Origin: Anadara kagoshimensis
Taxonomy: Eukaryota; Mollusca; Bivalvia; Arcoida; Arcidae
Length of the DNA: 64,000 nt
Direction of reading: 5' to 3'
Assembly: GCA_021292105.1 (NCBI GenBank)
Contig: CM037865.1
Location: 69,926,356 to 69,990,355, forward strand
The notes beneath the pieces were generated by a model. The model did not search any database and was not told the DNA's origin. It saw nothing but the letters and a program-made list of their open reading frames with translations. Positions 4,877 to 63,681 of this stretch are shown piece after piece (the stretch's first letter is position 1; the number at the start of each line of letters is the position of its first letter). Both the position numbers and the translations under genes were made by a program.

Positions 4877-5030
4877 ATGTGTGTTTGTAGCTAGCTAAAC
4901 AGGAGGTGCTTACCCTTCTGAAGCACCCGGCCTCACTTCCCTGGTGGAAGTTCACGTGTCTAACCTGACTTGTCGGTTCCAAAATTAACTTTGCTTCCAA
5001 TTGTGATTCGGAAATGGATTACTATGTTTT
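4877..5030 (+). mobile_element. Penelope-like element, 3' tail fragment
   Basis: The copy carries the diagnostic tail words in order: 'gtagctagctaaacaggagg', 'agcacccggcctcacttccc', 'tggtggaagttcacgtgtct' and 'ttgtgattcgg.aatggatt'. These are the same words that follow the PLE stop codon in the copies at 20122 and 47222. Only the untranslated tail is present here, as expected for a 5'-truncated retroelement insertion. It is a fossil fragment. Confidence 0.75.
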
Positions 5031-8710: not shown

Positions 8711-10610
8711 TACAGGAGTTCGAAAATAAAGCCCACAGCAACAATAATGTCTTCCGGTGCTAACTGGCGAAAGAAATATACTTAATGCAGCACTGGAATA
8801 GTATATTGGATGCACTTTTAAAGAAACAAATGAATAGATCAAACGAAAAATCCTGAATCCCGGGGTTATCATTTTTTAGGAATCTGAATCCAAGTCTATA
8901 GACCAGCTTACTGTATTGTATTTATCTTTCTATCTGTGACAGGTCGATACCTCTTTGATCCTGGGAACTAGAACATATTTTATGTATTTGTCTGATGTAA
9001 AAAGGGGGTTTGGTTGGTGAACGTCCAAATCTGTCTTCCGCTAACTTTCTTCGTGTTTTTTGTTGTATCTTCGAACTGTCTTAAGATATAGAATTTCTTA
9101 TCATCTGTTTTCTGTTATCAAAATCCTACACTAGGTACACCAGATTTCACGTTAAGGAATTCTGACGGGTTTACGCTTGTTTCACATTAATTTTGAAAGT
9201 GAAGACAACTAACAATACTGCAATATTTAGGAGTAGGATGATATATATACACAGTATACTAGATCTACCTTGTCTTGAAGGACTGCCTTCACTTTGTTTA
9301 CTAACCTAGTTTTAAAAGAAAACTCTAAATTAACCTGATTTTTTTATATTTCGCTTAAAATGAAATTATTTTGAGTTTAAAAGCGTGTTTATCAACAGAA
9401 CAGAATATTCTTTCTTTTCCTTGATACTTCTGACTAGGTAACTTTTTGACCAATATTTCTAAGAAATTAAAATATCTTGGTTTTACATTAGTCATACCAG
9501 AAAGTAGTGCGCATTGATGCGCATTGACGACGAACTAATACAAACGACTCTATGTGGTACCATTCCTGAGCATTCGTGTGATAAACCTGAACTTAGAGTT
9601 TCAGATACCTGAAATAAGTAATAGAAGTGTTTTTGATATTTAATTCTAATTAACGAACACAGCTATTTTTATATTAGTTAAGAAGGTTATTCTTGTAAAT
9701 GTTTAATAGGCTAGACATTATGAATAGCTAATAATGCAAAGAGAATATCTTACAATCTCCAGTTTGGTTTCATAGACCAGAACCATAGCTAATACTGTAA
9801 TCCAAATAAAACATAACCAACCACTACGACGAAATTGTCAATACGCATAACACAAGCGACTAGACACCCCTTAGCACTAAACGCTTAACTGTGATGTAAG
9901 AGAATATAATATAAAAATACTATATACGCCTTTTTGTCCATATCCATATAATAAACAACAGACAAGGTAGTTCTGAAAAGTGAAAATTTTAGAAACACAA
10001 AAACAATAAAAATCCTAGGGAAGTGTAAATAATGAGGTTTTTTCAGAAACACAAAAATGTGTATGTCGTGTGCTGCAGGTGTTATGTTTAACATGTTAAG
10101 GCGACACATAAATTGTTTTACACAAAAATTAATGTACCACTCATATAAAAGATGAGATACACTCCATAAGACATCCTGGATATGAAAAAACAGAATCCAT
10201 CGCATCAAGCAAAACGTGTGGCAAGAATTTCAAGTTATGTTTGGAAATACGACCAGATACCTTAAACTGGTAGAACATTTTTTCACCTGTGACTTCTATG
10301 ACTTTATAAAATGCAACGGTCTCGTAACTTTGTTACATCATTTCCTTTATGGTTGCAATAAACTTGCTCTCGTCCTTTTCAGGCCTAAAAGTCATTATCC
10401 TGAGAGATTAAAACTCATTTTTATGTCATCAAAATCGTTATGGTGAGACAAACGCAAAAATATATAACAATATTATAATAATCTTTGAAATGGCACAGCT
10501 ACAGTTGGCTTAAACATGCGCAATGCTGAATAATAAATTTTGTAAAGATTTCTGGAATTTGGTAAGACAGGAACAAACCCAGATATTTTTTGTTATTTAT
10601 ATACGATTTT
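8711..10610. other. intergenic, nothing recognised
   Basis: No supportable gene or element is seen. The open frame at 9885-10208 (-) is AT-rich and hydrophobic by composition, without an identifiable domain. Confidence 0.5.
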
Positions 10611-11576
10611 TGACATTAACTTTACACTCGGTCTGTATATGACTCGTTGACTGTATTCTCTATACCATGTATGTCAGTTTTTATTTGACATTAACTTTAC
10701 ACTCGGTCTGTATATGACTCGTTGACTGTATTCTCTATACCATGTATGTCAGTTTTTATTTGACATTAACTTTACACTCGGTCTGTATATGACTCGTTGA
10801 CTGTATTCTCTATACCATGTATGTCAGTTTTTATTTGACATTAACTTTACACTCAGTCTGTATATGACTCGTTGACTGTATTCTCTATACCATGTATGTC
10901 AGTTTTTATTTGACATTAACTTTACACTCAGTCTGTATATGACTCGTTGACTGTATTCTCTATACCATGTATGTCATTTTTTATTTGACATTAACTTTAC
11001 ACTCGGTCTGTATATGACTCGTTGACTGTATTCTCTATACCATGTCTGACATTAACTTTACACTCGGTCTGTATATGACTCGTTGACTGTATTCTCTATA
11101 CCATGTCTGACATTAACTTTACACTCGGTCTGTATATGACTCGTTGACTGTATTCTCTATACCATGTCTGACATTAACTTTACACCCGGTCTGTATATGA
11201 CTCGTTGACTGTATTCTCTATACCATGTATATCCGTTTTTATTTGACATTAACTTTACACTCGGTCTGTATATGACTCGTTGACTGTATTCTCTATACCA
11301 TGTCTGACATTAACTTTACACTCGGTCTGTATATGACTCGTTGACTGTATTCTCTATACCATGTTTGACATTAACTTTACACTCGGTCTGTATATGACTC
11401 GTTGACTGTATTCTCTATACCATGTTTGACATTAACTTTACACCCGGTCTGTATATGACTCGTTGACTGTATTCTCTATACCATGTATATCCGTTTTTAT
11501 TTGACATTAACTTTACACTCGGTCTGTATATGACTCGTTGACTGTATTCTCTATACCATGTATGTCAGTTTTTATT
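10611..11576. repeat. 14-unit minisatellite with 75- and 61-bp units
   Basis: Every unit starts 'tgacattaactttacac' and runs through 'ggtctgtatatgactcgttg' to 'ctctataccatgt'. Long units add a 14-bp extension ('atgtcagtttttat' or 'atatccgtttttat'). Unit starts are 10611, 10686, 10761, 10836, 10911, 10986, 11047, 11108, 11169, 11244, 11305, 11366, 11427 and 11502. The order is five long, then short-short-short-long twice, then one long. The two short-short-short-long blocks (10986-11243 and 11244-11501) are both 258 bp and share the same private variants ('cacccggtc' in the last unit, 'atatccg' in its extension), so a block duplication happened. Units are almost identical, which indicates recent homogenisation. 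Confidence 0.95.
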
Positions 11577-13541: not shown

Positions 13542-14007
13542 CAACCGCTATTGAAATAACGACCACTATTGAAATAATTATTTCAATAGCGGTTGAGAAT
13601 GCACTGAAATAACGACCACTATTGAAATAATTTCAATAGCGGTTGGGAATGCACTGAAATCACGACCACTATTGAAATTGGAATAATTATTTCAATAGCG
13701 GTTGTATCTGCACTGAAATAATGACCTCTATTGAAATAATTATTTCAATAGCGGTTGAGGATGCACTGAAATGACGACCACTATTGAAATAATTATTTCA
13801 ATAGCGGTTGAGAATGCACTGAAATAACGGCTTCTATTGAAATAATTATTTCAATAGCGGTTGAGAATGCACTGAAATAACGACCTCTATTATTTCAATA
13901 GCGGTTGGGAATGCACTGAAATAACGACCACTATTGAAATTGGAATAATTATTTCAATAGCGGTTGTATCTGCACTGAAATAACGACCTATATTGAAATA
14001 ATTATTA
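13542..14007. repeat. left array of the foldback element, about 53-bp palindromic units
   Basis: About eight units each contain a perfect palindrome whose half is CCGCTATTGAAATAA (30 bp in full length units), joined by 'ttgagaatgcactgaaata' and 'acgaccacta'. The word 'gcactgaaa' starts at 13601, 13651, 13710, 13763, 13816, 13869, 13913 and 13972. Spacing is thus 50, 59, 53, 53, 53, 44 and 59 bp. Confidence 0.9.
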
Positions 14008-15104: not shown

Positions 15105-15554
15105 ATTATTATTTCAATAGTGGTCGTTATTTCAGTTCTCAACCGCTATTGAAATAATTTCAATAGTGGTCGTTATTTCAGTGCATTCTCAACCGCTATT
15201 GAAATAATAGAGGTCGTTATTTCAGTGCATTCTCAACCGCTATTGAAATAATTATTTCAATAGAGGTCATTATTTCAGTGCATTCTCAACCGCTATTGAA
15301 ATAATTATTCCAATAGTGGTCGTTATTTCAGTGCATTCTCAACCGCTATTGAAATAATTATTTCAATAGAGGTCGTTATTTCAGTGCATTCTCAACCGCT
15401 ATTGAAATAATTTTTCCAATTTCAATAGTGGTCGTTATTTCAGTGCATTCTCAACCGCTATTGAAATTATTTCAATAGTGGTCGTTATTTCAGTGCATTC
15501 TCAACCGCTATTGAAATATTATTTCAATAGTAGTCGTTATTTCAATAGCGGTTG
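15105..15554. repeat. right (inverted) array of the foldback element
   Basis: The same units as 13542-14007, in reverse orientation: 'tagtggtcgttatttcagtg' then 'cattctcaaccgctattgaa'. About eight units are present with the same roughly 53-bp spacing and internal palindromes, ending 'tttcaatagcggttg'. Confidence 0.9.
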
Positions 15555-20121: not shown

Positions 20122-20445
20122 GTTGCTGACCCAGAAATATTGCTAGCATAGGCTTATCAGAGTCCTAAAAAGTTTTATGGCCGTCATCACAGTATTGTTG
20201 ATAAGTTTGATGTCTCTGTGTCCAGGATTGCCCTGGATATATTTGACGTCACATAGTTCCTGTTCCTTTCACTCAATTTTGATTACACACGTGGCGGGTG
20301 TAGCTAGCTAAACAGGAGGTGCTTAGCCCTCCGGAGCACCCGGTCTCATTTCACTGGTGCAAATTCACGTGTCTAACCTAACTTGTCAGTTTCAAAGCTT
20401 TACTTTGCTTCTGTATTGTGATTCGGAAATGGATTTGTATGTTTG
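20122..20445 (+). mobile_element. Penelope-like element, C-terminal codons and 3' tail
   Basis: The coding part survives as 'KKFYGRHHSIVDKFDVSVSR' followed by 'IALDIFDVT' and a stop codon at 20254-20256. This matches the end of PLE reverse-transcriptase proteins, which typically run 'LKKFYGR(H/Y)..LV..Y.VS.S.ML.DI'. The complete untranslated tail follows ('cgggtgtagctagctaaaca...atggatttgtatgttt'). The rest of the element is missing (5' truncation). This copy ties the untranslated repeat seen elsewhere to a PLE protein end. Confidence 0.8.
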
Positions 20446-40047: not shown

Positions 40048-41784
40048 CTACACCACTGTTTCACCATCACTTTTAGTTCTTTTGGATTTCTCGACCCGAA
40101 TAGCCCTATTTTGTTTAAGTGGAACTTGTTGGTATTGGTGTCCTGGAATAAAATACTCAATTCTTTTTCTTTCACGTTTTCTAAAACATAATTTCCCAGC
40201 GAATTTTTTCCAGGAATTAATGGTCTTTGTTGACCAGATCCACATGCCACTTGTAATACCCACAACAAGTGACATAAAAATTTTTAACATGAAAATTTCA
40301 ATTTTCGGTGAATTTGAAAAACCTTTTAAATACCACGAGTCCCTATTAGCATATTCGTAAAACAAACATGCAATAACACAAGTGGCTGGGACTGTATATA
40401 ACACTGAGAATATTCCAATCCGAACCATTAATACTTCCAATTTATCTGTTTTAACACCGTCACTTCGGACCTGTTTTCTAATTCTGAATAACGCTACAAA
40501 TCCTGCAATAAGGAATGAAATTCCCAACAAGAGGTAGACTAGTAAAGGGGCTATAGCAAACCCCAGAAGTGTTTGATTATTTTGGTTTCCAACGAAACAG
40601 ATGCCTGTCAATTCATCGGCATCAACGTCCCTCATAACAAGAATAACAATTGTTTTAATAGCAGGAACTGCCCAAGCAGCTAGATGAAAGTAACTACTGT
40701 GAAGCTGTATAGCCTCATGTCCCCACTTTAAACCTGCTGATAAAAACCAAGTTAGGGTTAAAACCACCCACCATAAAGAACTGGCGGTTCCAAAAAAGTA
40801 CAATAACAGGAATACAATAGCACAATCTGTGTTTTCTAAGCCCTCCTGTATCAGAATTGTGTCTTCACTTTGGCTATCTCCATCACATGCTATTGACTGA
40901 CGACCTGCTATCAAACGGACAATAAAAGCAATGCTGTAGATAAGAAAGCACATTGATAGGAATATTATTGGTCTCTCGGGATAGCGGAATCTCTGTGAAT
41001 CTATAAGAAATGTCAGCACTGTAAATAAAGTGGATACAAAACACAAACCAGCCCATATCGACATCCAAATATCAGCAAAATACTTGTCCTCTGTGCTGAA
41101 AGCGTCGTTTTCATTACACTTAATAGCACATCGTTCTGTTCTGTTGATATAAACATACTTGTCAGGGTGCCTCATGTCCTTACACATAATTCTAGCTACA
41201 TACTCTGGTCCGTAATGTGAGGGAGGTAAAAAAGGACGAGTCCCCATCCCATTATGAGGATCATGAGATTGGTATGGAGGTAATGGACGACGAGTAGGGT
41301 TCCTGGGAATAGGATCCTCTATATCTTCACCTGGGCCGTCCATACACATGTGCTTATGGTCATTCCTAGGTGGAAACTTTGAACAGTTCAGTGCTAACGG
41401 CCATGGAAATCCAAACTCGTGTAAAACAGGTTGGCACCGTTTCTGAACATTGATACACATGGGTCTACAAGGTCCTATTGGGTCCAAAACTTTCTCTGTG
41501 CACATTGGAACATAGACAGAACACAGGAAGAACTTGAGCTGGTTAGAACAACCATACTGGATAAGTGGTGTAAATGTCTGAAGCTGAAGTTCAGCATCTT
41601 GTTGTAAGTCATGTCCCACTAAGTTTGGCATACCAGTCACATTGTAACCAAGTCCTTTACACATCTCTATCCTGATGGGATCACATTGTCTTACTACTTC
41701 CGTACTGTAAACTTTTGTAACACTCGGTATAGTAACACATAGTACAGTTACTAGTAACACGTTTACATTGTTAATAATTCCCAT
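40048..41784 (-). CDS. fzd4: Frizzled-4-like Wnt receptor, single exon
   Basis: A seven-pass plasma-membrane receptor of 578 residues for Wnt ligands. The order is a signal peptide (about 1-28), then an extracellular cysteine-rich Wnt-binding domain with all ten cysteines (34, 42, 79, 88, 95, 106, 110, 117, 134, 147). A long proline-rich linker (about 150-200) follows, then seven membrane segments (about 238-261, 271-292, 321-346, 364-385, 406-434, 452-476, 498-518). The Dishevelled-binding KTxxxW motif is KTINSW (520-525), and the C-terminal PDZ ligand is ETVV. N-glycosylation sequons lie at 48, 133, 214 and 403. The CRD phrases 'MPNLVGH' and '[13 protein letters not shown]', with the ETVV end, point to Frizzled-4 rather than 9/10. 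I chose the ATG at 41782-41784: the open frame extends two codons further to a GTG, and an in-frame TAG lies just upstream. Its context (A at -3, G at +4) is favourable. It is intact and uninterrupted by introns. The linker is longer than I recall for vertebrate FZD4. Confidence 0.93.
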
Positions 41785-41797
41785 TTTCACAGAACAT
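41771..41797 (-). promoter_or_regulatory. 8-codon upstream ORF overlapping the Frizzled start
   Basis: An out-of-frame ATG at 41795-41797 (C at -3, weak context) opens a short frame encoding MFCENGNY. It ends at TAA (41771-41773), past the Frizzled ATG. If the transcript starts upstream, ribosomes must skip or leak past this ATG, which could lower translation. It is relevant only if the 5' untranslated region includes it; no transcript evidence is available. Confidence 0.35.
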
Positions 41798-43919
41798 GTG
41801 AACTATAAACTACTATATAACACGATTGTAAAAAATTGTTTTGTATGATAAAGGTTCACTTTACAACAGAAGAAAACATTAAAATCTCATAACATTGGGA
41901 AATCTCCTCCCTCGAAGTAAACACGTTGTTATGTTGTGTCCAGGCATAATGACAACACGCTGGATAATATAACGACTGCAAATTCTGTACATAACGAATA
42001 TATAAATTCTCCTTCAGTAAATAATATCCATGATCTGGCCTGTACAAAATAATCGCGTGAAATGGGAAAATACTAGGTCTGCGCTTGCATATAATCCGAG
42101 ATAACGTCGAGTGTCAAGTTAAATTAGAAAACAGTATATGCCAATGTTTGAGCCCACCGGTATTCGGTTTCGCACAAATACAATCCAATCAGATCACTTG
42201 ATCTTTCCTTCAGCTCCTCCCAGTTCGCGTTGTGAATACCCACAGATAACCATCAATCAAGCCTTAGCTGTCAATCACTTCTCATATGTCCGGTTATCAA
42301 TGGAATGATTTCAGATTACTGTCGGTTGTGGAAGCAAGCGTTCATAATACGTTGTATATGCTTGAATTATTCAGATATGTATGACATTATTCTATTGTGT
42401 TTCGTTCCATATTCAAAACAAACACAAAGTAGAGTTTAAATCAAATATGTATATATAGATATATACCCATACACGTGAACTGCTCCGTACTATACCATAT
42501 AACCATCAAGTTTTAAAATGAACAAGACATAAACACAAACATCCGTCCTTGTAAAGTCCAGAACTAAGTTATAACTTAGCACGGTGTATTCCTAGTTATA
42601 ATACAGGTAAAACTATAATTAATTATGTTTTATATGCACTATTACCTGTACTGCCCCTTTAATAAATTTTCTCGCCACAATGCATCTCCATAACGTACAT
42701 AGGTTAACTATGTTCCCGCCTCTTCATTATAGTTGTTTACAGAGTCTGGTATAAAATCCACTGATCATTAGTAACTAGATTCAGCATTCGATTGACACCT
42801 TTATATACAGTATATATTAAGCACTTTAACTTAGTAAACTTAATTTTCTTAAACTAAACTTCTGAGAGTCTTCTGGTAATGTTGTATCTAACAGAACCGT
42901 CCTGATTTAAACAGAACTATTTAAAAAATTCTCTCTCACTCCCAGTAATATATAAGCACTATTCATATATACCATTTGTAAAATCTAAAATAACAGAGGT
43001 GAAATCTATGATCTAACAAAGTTCTCAAAGCACAGCACGACTGGCAGTGACAAAAAGCAGAAACACTTCACCAAAACTGATAAGCTAAGTATGCAATGAG
43101 ATAAGTAGCAGACGATATTTATTATCGCCATCTACCGGCATTTATGTAACCATTTACTTTCAAAATTTATAAACCATACAATGAATCAAATTAATAAGTG
43201 TAATAACTAAATAAATTATTTATTTCTATAATGCATTTATGATTTGTGTCGATAAATAAACTCATGGGAATCCAATGAACCGCGAAAATTCCATCTCTCA
43301 CAAAATTGATAACATTATATGGTATATCCTAGGCGGAATTTATAAGGACGATCAAGTTGTCTCCCTTACTTCATTAAAGTGTTAAAGTTTAAAAGCAAAT
43401 GAACCACACCACAGCATTTTATTTGGACAGTATATCGGCGTTGGTCATGATATGGGAGTGGTCACTAACAATATGTATTTACTTTTGTCTTATGCCTTGT
43501 TTTCTAATATCGTTTCTTGTGGCGCGTTCTTGGCTGCATCTGTTAATTAAGTGATGGTTATCATTATAACTGCCACATTTTAAAAATAAAATCTTTATTT
43601 TATTTGGAATTATATAATTATGAGTTAGAAAATCATTTATTAAACATGATGAATGAAATGTTTTCCTAATTCTAAATCTCGGGATTGGATATTTTTATTT
43701 ATCAGAATAATGGTACTGTGTTTACCAGACATTGCAATGCCCGGTTTATTAGAGATGTTCATCCAGCACAAACAGTTTACCAGACCAGTAAACAGCACAC
43801 ATTCTCACTGGTGACAACTTAAATTAATCAAAAGTAGCATAGTAGCAAATTTCTTAAGGGAGTTTTCATCCCAAGTTCTTGTAGATATTTATTTCGACGA
43901 CGCATGTTGCCGATATGTT
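41798..43919. other. 5' flank of the Frizzled gene and intergenic sequence
   Basis: Probably holds the promoter. A CCAAT box lies near 42184 ('caatccaatcagatc') in a locally less AT-rich patch (about 42150-42240), but no start site can be fixed. No other gene is seen on either strand. Confidence 0.35.
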
Positions 43920-44399: not shown

Positions 44400-45130
44400 A
44401 ATTATAATACAATCCGGTTTGGGTTTTCAAATGTAAACTTTCATGAGCGTCATAATTTAGGTGCAAGTCTGAATATGAAGCAAAATTTGAGGAATCAGTC
44501 GTATCTGTTTTTTTGTCTAGCTCACTAGGAAAGATGGCAGATTAAGTATTGTTAGGAGACAGAATCTATATGAGGAGTTGAATGTTCTGGCGACAGTCGT
44601 CTCTCCAGATTTAACAAGGCTCTGCATAAATTTTGAAAGAAACAAATCGGCAAGCAATGGAGCACAGTTTGTACCCATTGGTATAGCGATTGTTTGCTTG
44701 AAAATTATATTAACTAACACAACAAATATGTTGCCTATCAAAACCTCCAATATTTTGTTGATGGTATCTTCACTTTATGTTTTTTTAAAATCCGTATGAT
44801 GTTTGATAAAATAACCATTATCCCTGTTCAGCACTAGATATTTGTATCTTGACTTACCTTTTGTGTAAAAGAATGACAATTACATACTGTACAAGTTTTA
44901 ATTTTACAGCACTAGACGGCCTTTACGGGATACAATTCCTCATCAGTAGTTTTTAGGCCAAAATTGAAAAAACCGACATTTTTTCGCAGATGCTGAAAAG
45001 TACCCCAAAAGGACCAAAGTATACTTTATTAAGGTTAGTAAGGAAAAAATACTTTGCATGAGGGAGTATACCTAAGTTTTCGAGAAATTCCAGATTTTAA
45101 CTAGCAGCAAACGTAGACAATAGTATATTT
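44400..45130 (-). mobile_element. Penelope-like element fragment: terminal repeat, ribozyme relic, RT
   Basis: Read on the minus strand, the order is a terminal-repeat segment (about 45130-44850) shared with 46210-46500 and 62280-62510, the hammerhead relic, then reverse-transcriptase remains at about 44760-44400. The RT core 'IPMGTNCAPLLADLFL' is the signature of PLE reverse transcriptases. A nearby frame has 'TDTTDSSNFASY', a typical PLE motif further along. The reading frame is broken in more than one place, and the C-terminus and 3' tail are absent. It is a fossil. This copy links the ribozyme-bearing repeat to PLE coding sequence. Confidence 0.75.
44909..44952 (-). ncRNA. hammerhead ribozyme relic in PLE terminal repeat
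   Basis: The arrangement (CTGATGA, helix II 'ggaat', loop, closing strand, cleavage-side 'gtctagtgc') is the same as in the intact motif at 62436-62479. However, part of the conserved core and helix I has decayed, so activity is not expected. Confidence 0.6.
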
Positions 45131-45840
45131 CAATAGAATAATGTTTTTGATGTTTTTTTTTTACTTTCTCAATCTCCTATTATGAAGAAAACATTTTTGG
45201 ATGCAGCTACAGGTATGTGCATTTGATAAAAACATGCAAATATGGCAATTGTGGGTCTTGTTACTTTTATCAAAAGAAATTATTGACTAGACACCCTAGA
45301 GCTGGTCCGTGATTACTACTCATCGACTAAATCAAACAATCCCCATAAACTAGTATATATCTATAGTATTTCAATACACATCAAGAAAATATTACGTAAC
45401 AAGTAGTACATTCGTGCTGTATAGAGACAAACATATATGTTTGTATAATAAAACAATAATAAATTAGTTTTACATATTTTCATATAAAATTTCATTGTTA
45501 ACATAATGTTGATTAAAGGTAGGAATTATTTTTATTTTTTTGAATGCGTATGTTTATTCACTTTATTCACAGGAGTGCTTTAAGTAATTAAACCATATTG
45601 CTGAATCTGAATGTTTGGAATAAAAGAAAAAAGAAAAATAGTTTGCCACTGAAAAACAAGTAGTTGGCAATGCCAGTGTAACCGACACATGTTTATAACA
45701 GAAATGTGATGTTCATTAAATAATACAGCATTATTCTACGAATAAAAAGTGATATAAATATAGCTTACATAGATGTGACACTTCGAACTGACCAAAATGA
45801 GCAAAAACAAGAAATCAACAATTAAATTATCGGTGCTTGT
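45131..45840. other. spacer between PLE fragments, nothing recognised
   Basis: AT-rich sequence. No gene or named element is seen. Confidence 0.45.
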
Positions 45841-46500
45841 TCAAATCACAATCCCAAAAGCAGAGTTTGAAATTTGACCGATGAAGGAAAATAATAGTAT
45901 GTGAACTTCCACCATTTGAAGAAAGGATGTGTGCTCCGGAAGGTACATTTGAAAATGAAAAGGAACCGAGACTATGGGGCATCTAATATATGCAATATTG
46001 TTTTGGATACAGATACAGAGACATCACCAAACATTGTTGTAATGACGGTCATAAAGCTTTTTGAGAGCCTTGATAAGCCTAGGACACAGCCCTGGCCTAA
46101 ACACCCCGACTTTCTACAGGTACTTTCTACAGTTACAAAATGGTATGCGTTAGACTCGTTTTAAGACAACTTCTTTTACAAAAAGCAACACATAATAATC
46201 TAAACATTGAATTACATATTATACCATTTTAAATTTTATAGCACTAGGAGGTCGTTTTGGAATACAATTCCTCATCAGTAGTGCTTGGACCAAAATTGTG
46301 AAATCAAAATTTATTTCCAGATTTTGATAAAATTCTCAAAGGACCAAAATATGTTTTACCAAATTTAGCTAAGGAAATACTTTGCCTTAGTTTTTGAGGA
46401 AATTTATATTTTAACTAGTAGCAAATTTAGACATTAGTATATTTCTGATGATAATACATAAGGAAATAGTTTGCATGAGGGAGTATACCTTAGCTTTGAA
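45841..46500 (-). mobile_element. short PLE derivative: ribozyme repeat plus C-terminal/3' tail
   Basis: On the minus strand a terminal-repeat segment with a hammerhead (about 46500-46210) is followed within about 110 bp by the last PLE codons and the untranslated tail (about 46098-45841). The tail words include 'ccggagcacacatcctttct' and 'ctgcttttgggattgtgatt'. No reverse-transcriptase core is recognisable between them. It is either an internally deleted PLE or a non-autonomous, retrozyme-like unit. It is a fossil, with the remaining coding end degraded. Confidence 0.6.
46241..46284 (-). ncRNA. hammerhead ribozyme relic, helices I and II intact
   Basis: On the minus strand helix I (GCACTA with TAGTGC) and helix II (GGAAT with ATTCC) are perfectly paired around CTGATGA. 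The core and cleavage-site region are altered relative to the consensus, so self-cleavage is doubtful. Confidence 0.65.
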
Positions 46501-47085: not shown

Positions 47086-47221
47086 CCTATACATCTCTAT
47101 GTGCATTTGACTATTCAGATTTAAGAAAATTCTTTAGAAATTCTGCTGCTTCATATAAATAAAGAAATAAAGCATCAATCAATGATGTATAATTAATTTA
47201 ACGCCCACGAAAGGCTACATT

Positions 47222-47743
47222 TGAAATTATGACAAACGTGATAGCTTCAATTTTTATATTGTCAACTTTCCTTTTCTATGCAGCAATATACCGGCTTATC
47301 CTGCTTATTGTGTATTTGTTTCCCAATTAAAGGCTATGGTAGAGCTTGTTCCAACTACGAAGACTTTGTACAACGAAGTAGGCTGCTTGCAAATAAATTG
47401 TTGACTCAGGGACATTGCAAGTCTAGGCTTATCAAGGCCCTCAAAAAGTTTTATGGCCGTCGATAAGTTTGATGACTCTGTGTCCAGGATTGCCCTGGAT
47501 ATATTTGAGGTCACATAGTTCCATGTTCCTTTCACACAATTTGGATTACATACGTGGCGAGTGTAGCTAGCTAATCAGGAGGTACTTACCCTTCTGGAGC
47601 ACCCGGCCTCACTTCCTTGGTAGAAGTTCACGTATCTAACCCGACTTGTCAGTTCCAAAGTTTTTACTTTGCTTCTGTATTGTGATTCGGACATGGATAA
47701 GTATGTTTGTTTTTGATTGATAGTGATAATTTGTTTGTAAGTA
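47222..47743 (+). mobile_element. Penelope-like element, C-terminus with complete 3' tail
   Basis: The longest 3' copy. Coding motifs in order are 'YDKRDSFNFYIVNFPFLCSN', 'ACSNYEDFVQRSRLLANKLL', 'SRLIKALKKFYGR', and a stop region as at 20254. The untranslated tail ('gtagctagctaatcaggagg', 'cttccttggtagaagttcac', 'attgtgattcggacatggat') ends at 'gtttgtttttgat'. The 5' part, including the RT catalytic core, is missing. It is broken in a few places. Confidence 0.8.
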
Positions 47744-48883: not shown

Positions 48884-49440
48884 AAATCAAATACAAACAT
48901 ACTAATCCATGTTTGAAACACAATCCAGAAGCAAAGTAAAAACTTTGAAACAGACAAGTGAGGTTAATCACGTGCATTTCCACCAGGGAAGTGAGGCCAG
49001 GTGGTCAGGAAGGGTAATCACCTCCAGTTTAGCGTGTGTAATAAAAATGAAGTAAAAGGAATATGGAAGTTTTGGACGTCAGACATATCCAGGGCATAAC
49101 TGGACACAGAGTCATCAGACATCAACAATACTGTGATGACAGCCATAAATCGTTTTGGGGACCCTGATAGGCCTAGGCTTGCAATATCCATACGTCAACA
49201 ATTTATTTGTAAGCAGCTTGCTGCGTTGTATGAAGTTCCAGTAGTTCTAGTTATTGGATACAAATACACTATAAGCATGAAAAGCAGGTATATTGTTATA
49301 TAGAACAGGAAAATTGACAATAGAAAATTTGAAGTTATCACGTTTGTCATACAATTTCGTTGGAATCATAATTGAGGTTTAAGTCTAAATATGAAGCAAA
49401 AGTTGATGAATCAGTCGTATCTTTTATTTCAAGCTCATGA
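48884..49440 (-). mobile_element. Penelope-like element, RT C-terminus plus 3' tail
   Basis: Minus-strand frames carry 'LEIKDTTDSSTFASYLDL' and 'KLYDKRDNFKFSIVNFPV', then 'RSKLLTNKLLTYGYCKPR', then the degraded protein end and the full tail ('ccatgtttgaaacacaatcc' on the plus strand). It is 5'-truncated and broken in several places. Confidence 0.75.
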
Positions 49441-59890: not shown

Positions 59891-60145
59891 GATGACATCG
59901 GATTAGAAATATCCAGGGCTGTCCTGGATATACCATACGTCACATTGTTTTTATGTTTCTTCACTCTCAATTTTGATTACACACGCCGCGGGTATTACTA
60001 AACAGGAGGTGCTAATACTTCCGGAGTACCCATTAACACTTTCCTGGTAGCAGTTCACGTGTTTTATCTTAATTGTCAGTTTCAAAGTTTTTTCTTTGCT
60101 TTGAGATTGTGATTTGGACATGGATTAGTATGCTAGTTTTTGATT
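59891..60145 (+). mobile_element. PLE protein end and 3' tail
   Basis: It starts in the last codons ('aatatccagggctgtcctgg') and runs through 'aacaggaggtgctaatactt' to 'tttggacatggattagtatg'. It is moderately diverged. Confidence 0.7.
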
Positions 60146-62279: not shown

Positions 62280-62510
62280 CAGTGACTTTATAAGGGATTT
62301 CAATTATTGGTTGTCCTTTCTTCTTTCGTTTAGCTGCAAAATATTTCCTTAGCTGATTTTGGTAAAATATATTTTGGTCTTTTGGATTCTTTTCAACATC
62401 TTCAAAAAAGTCTTGGTTTCATAATTCAGGTCTAAGCACTACTGATGAGGAATTGTATTCCGAAACGGCCGTCTAGTGCTGTAAAATTAAGATTGGTATA
62501 ATATGTAATT
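62280..62510 (+). mobile_element. PLE terminal-repeat segment carrying an intact hammerhead
   Basis: It shares with the minus-strand segments at 44850-45130 and 46210-46500 the words 'aatatttccttagctgattt', 'tggtaaaatatattttggtc', 'gcactactgatgaggaattg' and 'gtataatatgtaatt'. The ribozyme lies near its downstream end, as known for PLE terminal repeats. A 3' tail fragment in the same orientation begins 560 bp further on (63070). This may be the other end of the same insertion. Confidence 0.65.
62436..62479 (+). ncRNA. hammerhead ribozyme, type I, complete core
   Basis: A self-cleaving RNA motif. Helix I is GCACTA (62436-62441) with TAGTGC (62474-62479), six perfect pairs. The core CTGATGA is at 62442-62448. 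Helix II is GGAAT (62449-62453) with ATTCC (62457-62461), five perfect pairs closed by the loop TGT. GAAA is at 62462-62465. Helix III is minimal (A-U and C-G around GGCC), leading to the GTC cleavage triplet at 62471-62473, so cleavage would fall between 62473 and 62474. All invariant hammerhead positions are present. Very short helix III is known from PLE and retrozyme hammerheads, which often work as dimers. It processes retroelement RNA; it is not a host gene. Confidence 0.87.
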
Positions 62511-63178: not shown

Positions 63179-63572
63179 AACATACTAATCCATATCGAAA
63201 TCACAATTCAAAGCAAAGCAAAAATATTGAAACTGAAAAGTAAGGTAGAACCCTTAAATTCCGCCAGGAAAGTGAGGCCGTATGCTTCGTATGAGAAAGC
63301 ATCTCCTACTCCTGTGTAACTAGCTACATCCGGCACATGTGTATTCGAAATTGGGAATGAAAGGAACATGGAACTATGGAACGTCAAATATATCCAGGGT
63401 AATATGGGTTCAGAGACATCATTCATTATCAACAACATTGTGAAAACAGCCTCAAAACTTTTTTAGAGCCCTGGTAAGCCTAGGCTTGCAACATTCCTGT
63501 GTCAACAATTTATTTGTAAACAGCTTGCTTAGTTGTATGAAATTCACGCAGTGGGAACAAGCTCTGACATAA
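63179..63572 (-). mobile_element. PLE protein end and complete 3' tail
   Basis: The minus strand contains the protein-end region ('gcttgttccca', 'tttacaaataaattgttgac', 'gccctggtaagcctaggctt' on the plus strand) and the whole untranslated tail down to 'catactaatccatatcgaaa' at 63181. It is 5'-truncated and broken. Confidence 0.75.
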
Positions 63573-63681
63573 AATATGAATTGTAAAAAATACACCATCA
63601 AGCTGGAGACTCTGGTATATAGCTGCATATGTTTACGGTAGCTAATTCAATTATAAAAACGTCAGCAGACTATATTCTTAT

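Follow-up and report, generated by a model that had tools for sequence, protein, structure and literature searches.

A hammerhead-bearing retrozyme of Anadara kagoshimensis and an RNA hairpin it has in common with an abundant Penelope-like element

Animal retrozymes are reported as abundant self-cleaving circular RNAs, and their route back into DNA is the question addressed here. For other retrozymes, the hammerhead is described as cutting the transcripts of arrays into units that become circles (PMC7229834). Penelope-like elements (PLEs) have been named as likely helpers of animal retrozymes, since the two have hammerheads and tandem copies in common and occur together (PMC7229834, PMC7761336, PMC11722881). 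For the lizard PLE called PAc, the portions of PMC11167929 drawn on here describe copying that starts inside the RNA template, 111–118 nt into the ORF, and that requires the first 172 nt of the ORF, with RNA downstream of the copying start. The hammerhead of PAc cuts upstream of that start, 26 nt into the ORF, and its cleavage is dispensable for insertion in vitro (PMC11167929), which counts against the cycle proposed below.

Here, we analyse a hammerhead motif in a window of the Anadara kagoshimensis genome, the window being the whole stretch of 64,000 nucleotides that was examined. We will argue that the window holds a solitary old copy of a retrozyme, that the source arrays of this retrozyme would self-cleave, and that their RNA would be copied by the PLE of the same genome via a hairpin. 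To this reading we assign a probability of roughly 0.65.

The hammerhead motif and its retrozyme family

The features of the locus and of its relatives in the window are collected in Table 1. Judged by its sequence, the hammerhead at 62436–62479 is real. The earlier note had described a complete catalytic core with all parts in the correct order and a cleavage site between 62473 and 62474; direct reading bears out the former, and the latter is correctly placed as a prediction. Its count of 6 pairs for helix I becomes 7 if 62435 and 62480 are included. Helix III can be read either as an A-T and a C-G pair closing GGCC or as a palindrome able to pair between two molecules. With three helices around the core and the open end at helix I, the motif is of type I.

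Table 1. Coordinates of the window features, with the basis of each assignment
Feature	Position in window	Strand	Basis or remark
5′-truncated single unit copy, unit positions about 165–339	62335..62509	+	89.7% identity to L061 unit, 175 columns
Helix I, 5′ strand AGCACTA	62435..62441	+	7/7 pairs with 62474–62480
Catalytic core CTGATGA	62442..62448	+	sequence; Rfam alignment
Helix II GGAAT-TGT-ATTCC, 62449–62453 with 62457–62461, loop TGT	62449..62461	+	sequence; fold
GAA 62462–62464, minimal palindromic helix III ACGGCCGT 62465–62472, C 62473	62462..62473	+	sequence; Rfam alignment
Helix I, 3′ strand TAGTGCT; predicted cleavage 62473/62474	62474..62480	+	sequence pairing
35–37-nt stretch from cleavage site to fixed 3′ end (...ATATGTAATT)	62474..62509	+	same end in 21/25 exact-core copies
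Related unit copy, decayed core: GAAA reads AAAA, GTC lost	46212..46457	-	sequence comparison
Further 39-bp unit fragment, core-less, abutting the 46212–46457 copy	46459..46497	-	sequence comparison
Related unit copy, decayed core: GAAA reads GTAA, helix I broken	44880..45131	-	sequence comparison
5′-truncated PLE fragment (RT region), abutting the unit copy at 44880 (1 nt)	44425..44879	-	sequence comparison

A chance origin had been called unlikely, and the counts agree: the generic hammerhead pattern CTGATGAG-N5-25-CGAAAC-N2-10-GTC matches once in the window and in none of 100 dinucleotide shuffles. The 56-nt fold of the motif is mildly better than those of shuffles (z −1.67). The check named beforehand, a covariance-model match above threshold, gave on the other hand a score below it. 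Rfam Hammerhead_1 (RF00163) aligns to 62436–62479 over its full length with the core (model positions 1–45 of 45; E 1.2e-5 in a 76-nt slice), and it differs from an accepted match by its score, 28.1 bits where the gathering score is 34. Scanning the whole 64-kb window gives zero matches at the gathering level, and in a 4-kb slice the three matches at E up to 10 do not include a hammerhead. The gathering score is likewise unreached in a 13-unit array with intact cores (L061), so the low score looks like a property of the minimal helix III of this family in combination with the threshold.

In the genome to which the window belongs (1.115 Gb, 36 contigs), there are 3061 exact matches to the 32-nt core, compared with 0 for the reversed control. 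The repeated unit has 339 bp and a GC content of 34%, and it is found singly and in arrays. One array (L003) repeats it 5.0 times with a period of 339 and 98% matches, while the longest array examined (L061) consists of 13 full units and a partial one. For the main subfamily, an exact match to the 37-nt tandem junction is present at 787 places in the genome. A further array (L062, 463–1900) has four full units and a partial one at a spacing of about 350–368 bp, with five hammerhead cores intact.

With this length and one type I hammerhead, the unit lies within the range of about 150–450 bp of metazoan non-LTR retrozymes, and it shares with them multiple tandem copies, low GC and the lack of coding capacity, its longest stop-free stretch being 49 codons. 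No flanking LTR pair was noticed around units in the loci looked at. PLEs are recognised by an encoded RT, with GIY-YIG in canonical members, and the unit, being without an ORF, is not one of them. The fold of the whole monomer is no better than those of shuffles (z −0.56). The family fits the animal non-LTR retrozyme, a kind already known; its own cleavage and circles are predicted.

Some other features of the window and the loci can be mentioned here. On the minus strand of the window, a 584-codon stop-free frame (40051–41802) has Fz and Frizzled membrane domains (Pfam 3.2e-32 and 2.8e-127), which share this single uninterrupted frame. Tandem repeats of a 53-bp unit at 13552–14006 and 15116–15544 look mutually reverse-complementary, and an array at 10609–11576 contains one unit in two intermixed lengths, 75 bp and 61 bp, with 96–99% matches. 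On contig C1, there are two pairs of loci (L014/L016 and L017/L019) whose members are separated by hundreds of kilobases and agree in repeat layout, the first pair having nearly the same 470-codon frame; either a segmental duplication or an artefact of assembly seems to lie behind this.

The Penelope-like element and the common hairpin

RT fragments near many retrozyme copies belong to one hugely expanded PLE (59,776 first-look candidates, of which 150 were scored). Its segments make up about 11% of the sampled sequence, i.e. 20 regions and the window, with overlapping pieces not merged. The longest of its frames quoted here is a stop-to-stop frame of 1067 codons (L049), of which approximately the first 49 lie upstream of the element start; two other long frames, on the reverse strand, have 962 (L050) and 939 codons (L051). 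In the first frame, GIY-YIG (residues 203–292) precedes RVT_1 (814–917), with Pfam E values of 1.7e-4 and 2e-4 and scores just under the Pfam cut-offs. For the 962-codon frame, Pfam lists GIY-YIG only (E 0.0074), and for two RT pieces of L009 the Pfam search matched no family. A search of the PLE frame against solved structures gave nothing. Naiad-type PLEs are said to place the endonuclease before the RT (reportedly the work of Craig et al. in 2021), and we take GIY-YIG N-terminal to RT to be the domain order of this group. The abundant PLE resembles Naiad-type elements in its very high copy number and in this order, and it is by the order that it is tentatively placed with them.

In 12 loci, the PLE copies terminate at or a few nucleotides from ...TTTTTGATTA, followed by unrelated flanks. 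The tandem junction ...TTTTTGATTA-TTACTACTGGGTCGG... was found in four loci (L052, L053, L054 and L056) and, with one change, in a fifth (L057); in its exact 37-nt form it occurs at 75 places in the genome, many of them within short arrays. Rfam gave no hammerhead at the junction in three junction loci, and the pattern scan had no match in the three long copies (L049–L051). An Rfam scan of 3.4 kb of L049 (1400–4800) also gave no hammerhead, a weak result given that a similar 4-kb slice missed the one in the window.

Fragments of one PLE are dense in the window between 4886 and 63629, on both strands and with many ending at the same 3′ point (for example 20123–20445, 47201–47718, 48885–49437, 59912–60145 and 63179–63629). 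In L050, an oppositely oriented retrozyme fragment (reverse strand, 4925–5026) has its 3′ end about 8 nt from that of the long PLE copy.

The sequence and the position of a 53-nt RNA hairpin are common to the two families. It begins 4 nt into the PLE unit and 9 nt into the retrozyme unit, where it sits just downstream of the element's 3′ terminus. The local score between retrozyme and PLE is 38. When the first 200 nt of the retrozyme are dinucleotide-shuffled 2000 times, the highest score obtained is 28, and 2000 shuffles of the whole unit reach at most 35. The 3′ ends of the two elements have no significant similarity, 353 of 2000 shuffles reaching the score. Folded alone, one PLE and one retrozyme sequence adopt an identical structure, as do three sequences in a second fold run, and among 18 distinct sequences, 13 have the hairpin as their minimum-energy fold (the exceptions are L021, L049, L057, L058 and L060). 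Compared with shuffles, it is more stable in the PLE (z −2.9) and hardly so in retrozymes (z −1.2 and −1.3).

Covariation was evaluated in an alignment (A2) of 10 rows of our own choice, 3 from the PLE and 7 from the retrozyme, of which 9 are distinct and one is shortened; it represents essentially two families, its structure was taken from the sequences' own folds, and four loci (L021, L049, L058 and L060) were left out of it. The 19 pairs are formed in 98.8% of 167 cells. Three of them are changed on both sides between forms with pairing kept, and one alternates between A-U and G-U. When the partner is slid by 1 to 3 columns, pairing falls to 40–49%. Of five measures, three (paired cells, doubly changed cells and covariation score) are matched by none of 500 shuffles; at least three doubly changed pairs are seen in 109 of these shuffles, and 303 have as many pair types as the alignment or more. 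Two 53-nt forms of the hairpin have 14 differences, 7 of them in the 38 paired columns, and if these 7 are placed at random, all 19 pairs together with at least three double changes are obtained in about 1.4e-4 of trials. A model built on the alignment scores the left-out loci at 85.3 (L021), 67.0 (L058), 49.2 (L049) and 25.9 bits (L060).

A 28-place pattern of the hairpin core occurs at 1728 places in the genome, with 0 for the reversed control; by eye, 7 of the matches listed have the PLE form and the others the retrozyme form or variants. Its one match in 2.9 million viral contigs (L063) was taken as chance; by eye, the surroundings are unlike both families and the listed frames are without retroelement signs. 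Judged by titles and the beginnings of abstracts, a scope outside which most subscription papers fall, no shared retrozyme–PLE recognition motif has been reported. A structured hairpin shared by a retrozyme and an autonomous PLE of one genome is the part that appears to be new, and it points to the PLE as the copier. We also considered joined retrozyme–PLE insertions as a sign of one enzyme, and rejected them: 2 of 41 retrozyme 3′ ends meet a PLE, near the background of 2% of random positions, counted on one side only.

It is important to ask whether the hairpin could simply be inherited. The retrozyme might have arisen from a relative of the PLE by internal deletion, and the hairpin would then be uninformative about present mobilisation. 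Derivatives of the PLE that have lost internal sequence are indeed present in this genome as tandem units of 116–126 bp. They were seen in L064 (1–361, contig C10), L065 (1–331, C5) and L066 (1–361, C4), with units of 116, 126 and 120 bp made of approximately the first 75 nt and the last 39–56 nt of the PLE with breakpoints that differ per locus; an Rfam scan of these arrays gave zero matches and no hammerhead. However, in both families the hairpin has been preserved through compensatory changes, which suggests that it is still used, and outside the hairpin the retrozyme unit has no match at E 0.01 to the PLE copy in L049. We consider this origin unlikely, though it deserves to be taken seriously. 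The short arrays retain the hairpin region and the PLE 3′ end, and their support for a link between PLE and hairpin is weak, since local duplication explains them equally well.

Ends of the copies and age of the window copy

The ends of the retrozyme copies were compared in 25 distinct exact-core copies, with duplicates dropped and L009, L029, L061 and L062 excluded before the count. Their starts are spread over unit positions 1 to 271, while 21 of them stop at the last unit position, and the sequence that follows ...ATATGTAATT varies among copies. A fixed 3′ end 35–37 nt past the cleavage site together with scattered 5′ ends is the anatomy of an animal non-LTR retrozyme. Such ends would be expected from the copying of multimeric or circular RNA with one internal start and stops anywhere.

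Metazoan retrozymes have target-site duplications of >4 bp when these are present. Neither family has them consistently (1 of 30 insertions in each), and a second counting method gave no signal; integration of the two by one machine thus draws no support from them. For the retrozyme, the only long flanking repeat among the 30 insertions sits in a repetitive locus. For the PLE, the sole long target-site duplication among 30 insertions is a 46-bp perfect direct repeat that flanks a 5′-truncated copy (L036).

The absence of consistent duplications would also suit an ordinary satellite DNA that is spread by unequal crossing-over and carries the hammerhead passively, as would tandem arrays of near-identical units (98–99% in L009). 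Against this, the copies number in the thousands and lie on many contigs among those listed, and one fixed 3′ end with scattered 5′ ends is a signature of copying from an RNA template. A satellite is thus quite improbable.

A different possibility is that the unit is not a separate non-autonomous element, being instead the pseudo-LTR of an autonomous PLE. It was suspected first, on seeing an RT motif 200 bp from the 44.9-kb copy and an RT frame in front of the L009 array; PLE terminal repeats are indeed described as carrying type I hammerheads (PMC7761336), and PLE RT fragments lie near many retrozyme copies. Yet such proximity is expected from the share of the PLE in the sampled sequence, given above. 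Moreover, the 3′ end of the abundant PLE is not that of the unit, and a hammerhead was found neither at its junction nor by the pattern scan of the three long copies. In the loci listed, units that reach the first positions (1–4) are each preceded by another unit piece, the exception being L009, where the DNA before the first unit is unrelated. Set aside on account of that coverage and of the PLE's own 3′ end at L009:2867, a pseudo-LTR origin, judged on this one PLE family, seems to us highly unlikely.

We now return to the copy in the window, which we read, from its sequence, as a solitary, 5′-truncated, old copy of the non-autonomous non-LTR retrozyme. It is 88.2% identical to the L003 unit, and 39 other scored relatives across the genome are 91–93% identical to it (40 of 4671 first-look candidates were scored). 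The earlier note had it as either the youngest copy or one kept by chance. The first option does not hold: in a list of 31 insertions with at least 85% identity to an L061 unit, L061 itself being left out of the comparison, 22 of the 29 others resemble that unit more closely than does the window copy (90%), which is about 10% diverged. As for the second, the core it has kept is the usual one of the family, as the 3061 exact copies imply, and is not special to it. Slower change of the hammerhead or the hairpin in old copies was considered and dropped, the numbers being confounded by the choice of copies and by alignment ends.

The three decayed relatives claimed for the window are in part recovered: two copies, both on the minus strand, are 80–81% identical to the L061 unit and have broken cores, and the third may be the fragment at 46459–46497. 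The adjacency of a PLE fragment to the copy at 44880 is not clearly above background.

A solitary, 5′-truncated unit offers no monomer that could be released between two cleavage sites, and alone it should therefore yield no RNA circle; little or no function is expected of the window locus. That this copy is itself a working ribozyme kept by the host can be all but dismissed: the core is intact although the copy is about 10% different from the L061 unit, but the copy is solitary and truncated, some old copies among so many exact cores would retain theirs by chance, and the weak helix III would favour dimers.

Proposed cycle and comparison with known systems

For the retrozyme and its PLE, we propose the following cycle. 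Transcripts of the arrays would self-cleave at each hammerhead, where two hammerheads probably pair through their palindromic ACGGCCGT helix III, and the cleaved monomers may be ligated into circles. Multimeric or circular retrozyme RNA would then be copied by the RT of the abundant PLE, whose protein would recognise the hairpin a few nucleotides downstream of the copying start, with copying beginning just upstream of it. The order of hammerhead, copying start and downstream RNA is the same as in PAc; on our reading, the hairpin would be bound by the PLE protein, which would then copy the RNA lying upstream. Copying started there would explain the fixed 3′ end 35–37 nt past the cleavage site, the variable 5′ ends and the insertions of one to many units.

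A more specific claim can be made, for which we see the odds as evenly balanced. A specific PLE would act in trans on the retrozyme and mobilise it by way of the covarying hairpin just downstream of the copying start, in a SINE/LINE-like relation; the hairpin would be the recognition element of that PLE group, and the hammerhead would cut the array transcripts into units. With a shared motif at nearly the same place, the link between retrozyme and PLE becomes an experiment on binding and copying with defined mutants, and the motif predicts where such PLE proteins would read their RNA.

Among known systems, PAc, a Poseidon PLE of the green anole, has the same order of hammerhead, copying start (here the 3′ end) and downstream RNA as the retrozyme, and also tandem copies (PMC11167929). 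Unlike the retrozyme, PAc is autonomous, has a C-terminal endonuclease and has its needed RNA within the first 172 nt of the ORF (PMC11167929); the likeness drawn here is one of layout. The retrozyme of Mytilus galloprovincialis is likened to the present one by features and not by unit sequence: both have a type I hammerhead, thousands of copies, tandem arrangement, low GC and no ORF, with PLEs in the genome, and the units are 339 bp here and about 350–390 bp in Mytilus galloprovincialis (PMC7229834). What may distinguish the Anadara family is the hairpin that it shares with an autonomous partner, a feature unmentioned for retrozymes of the Mytilus galloprovincialis type in the portions of PMC7229834 on which this comparison draws.
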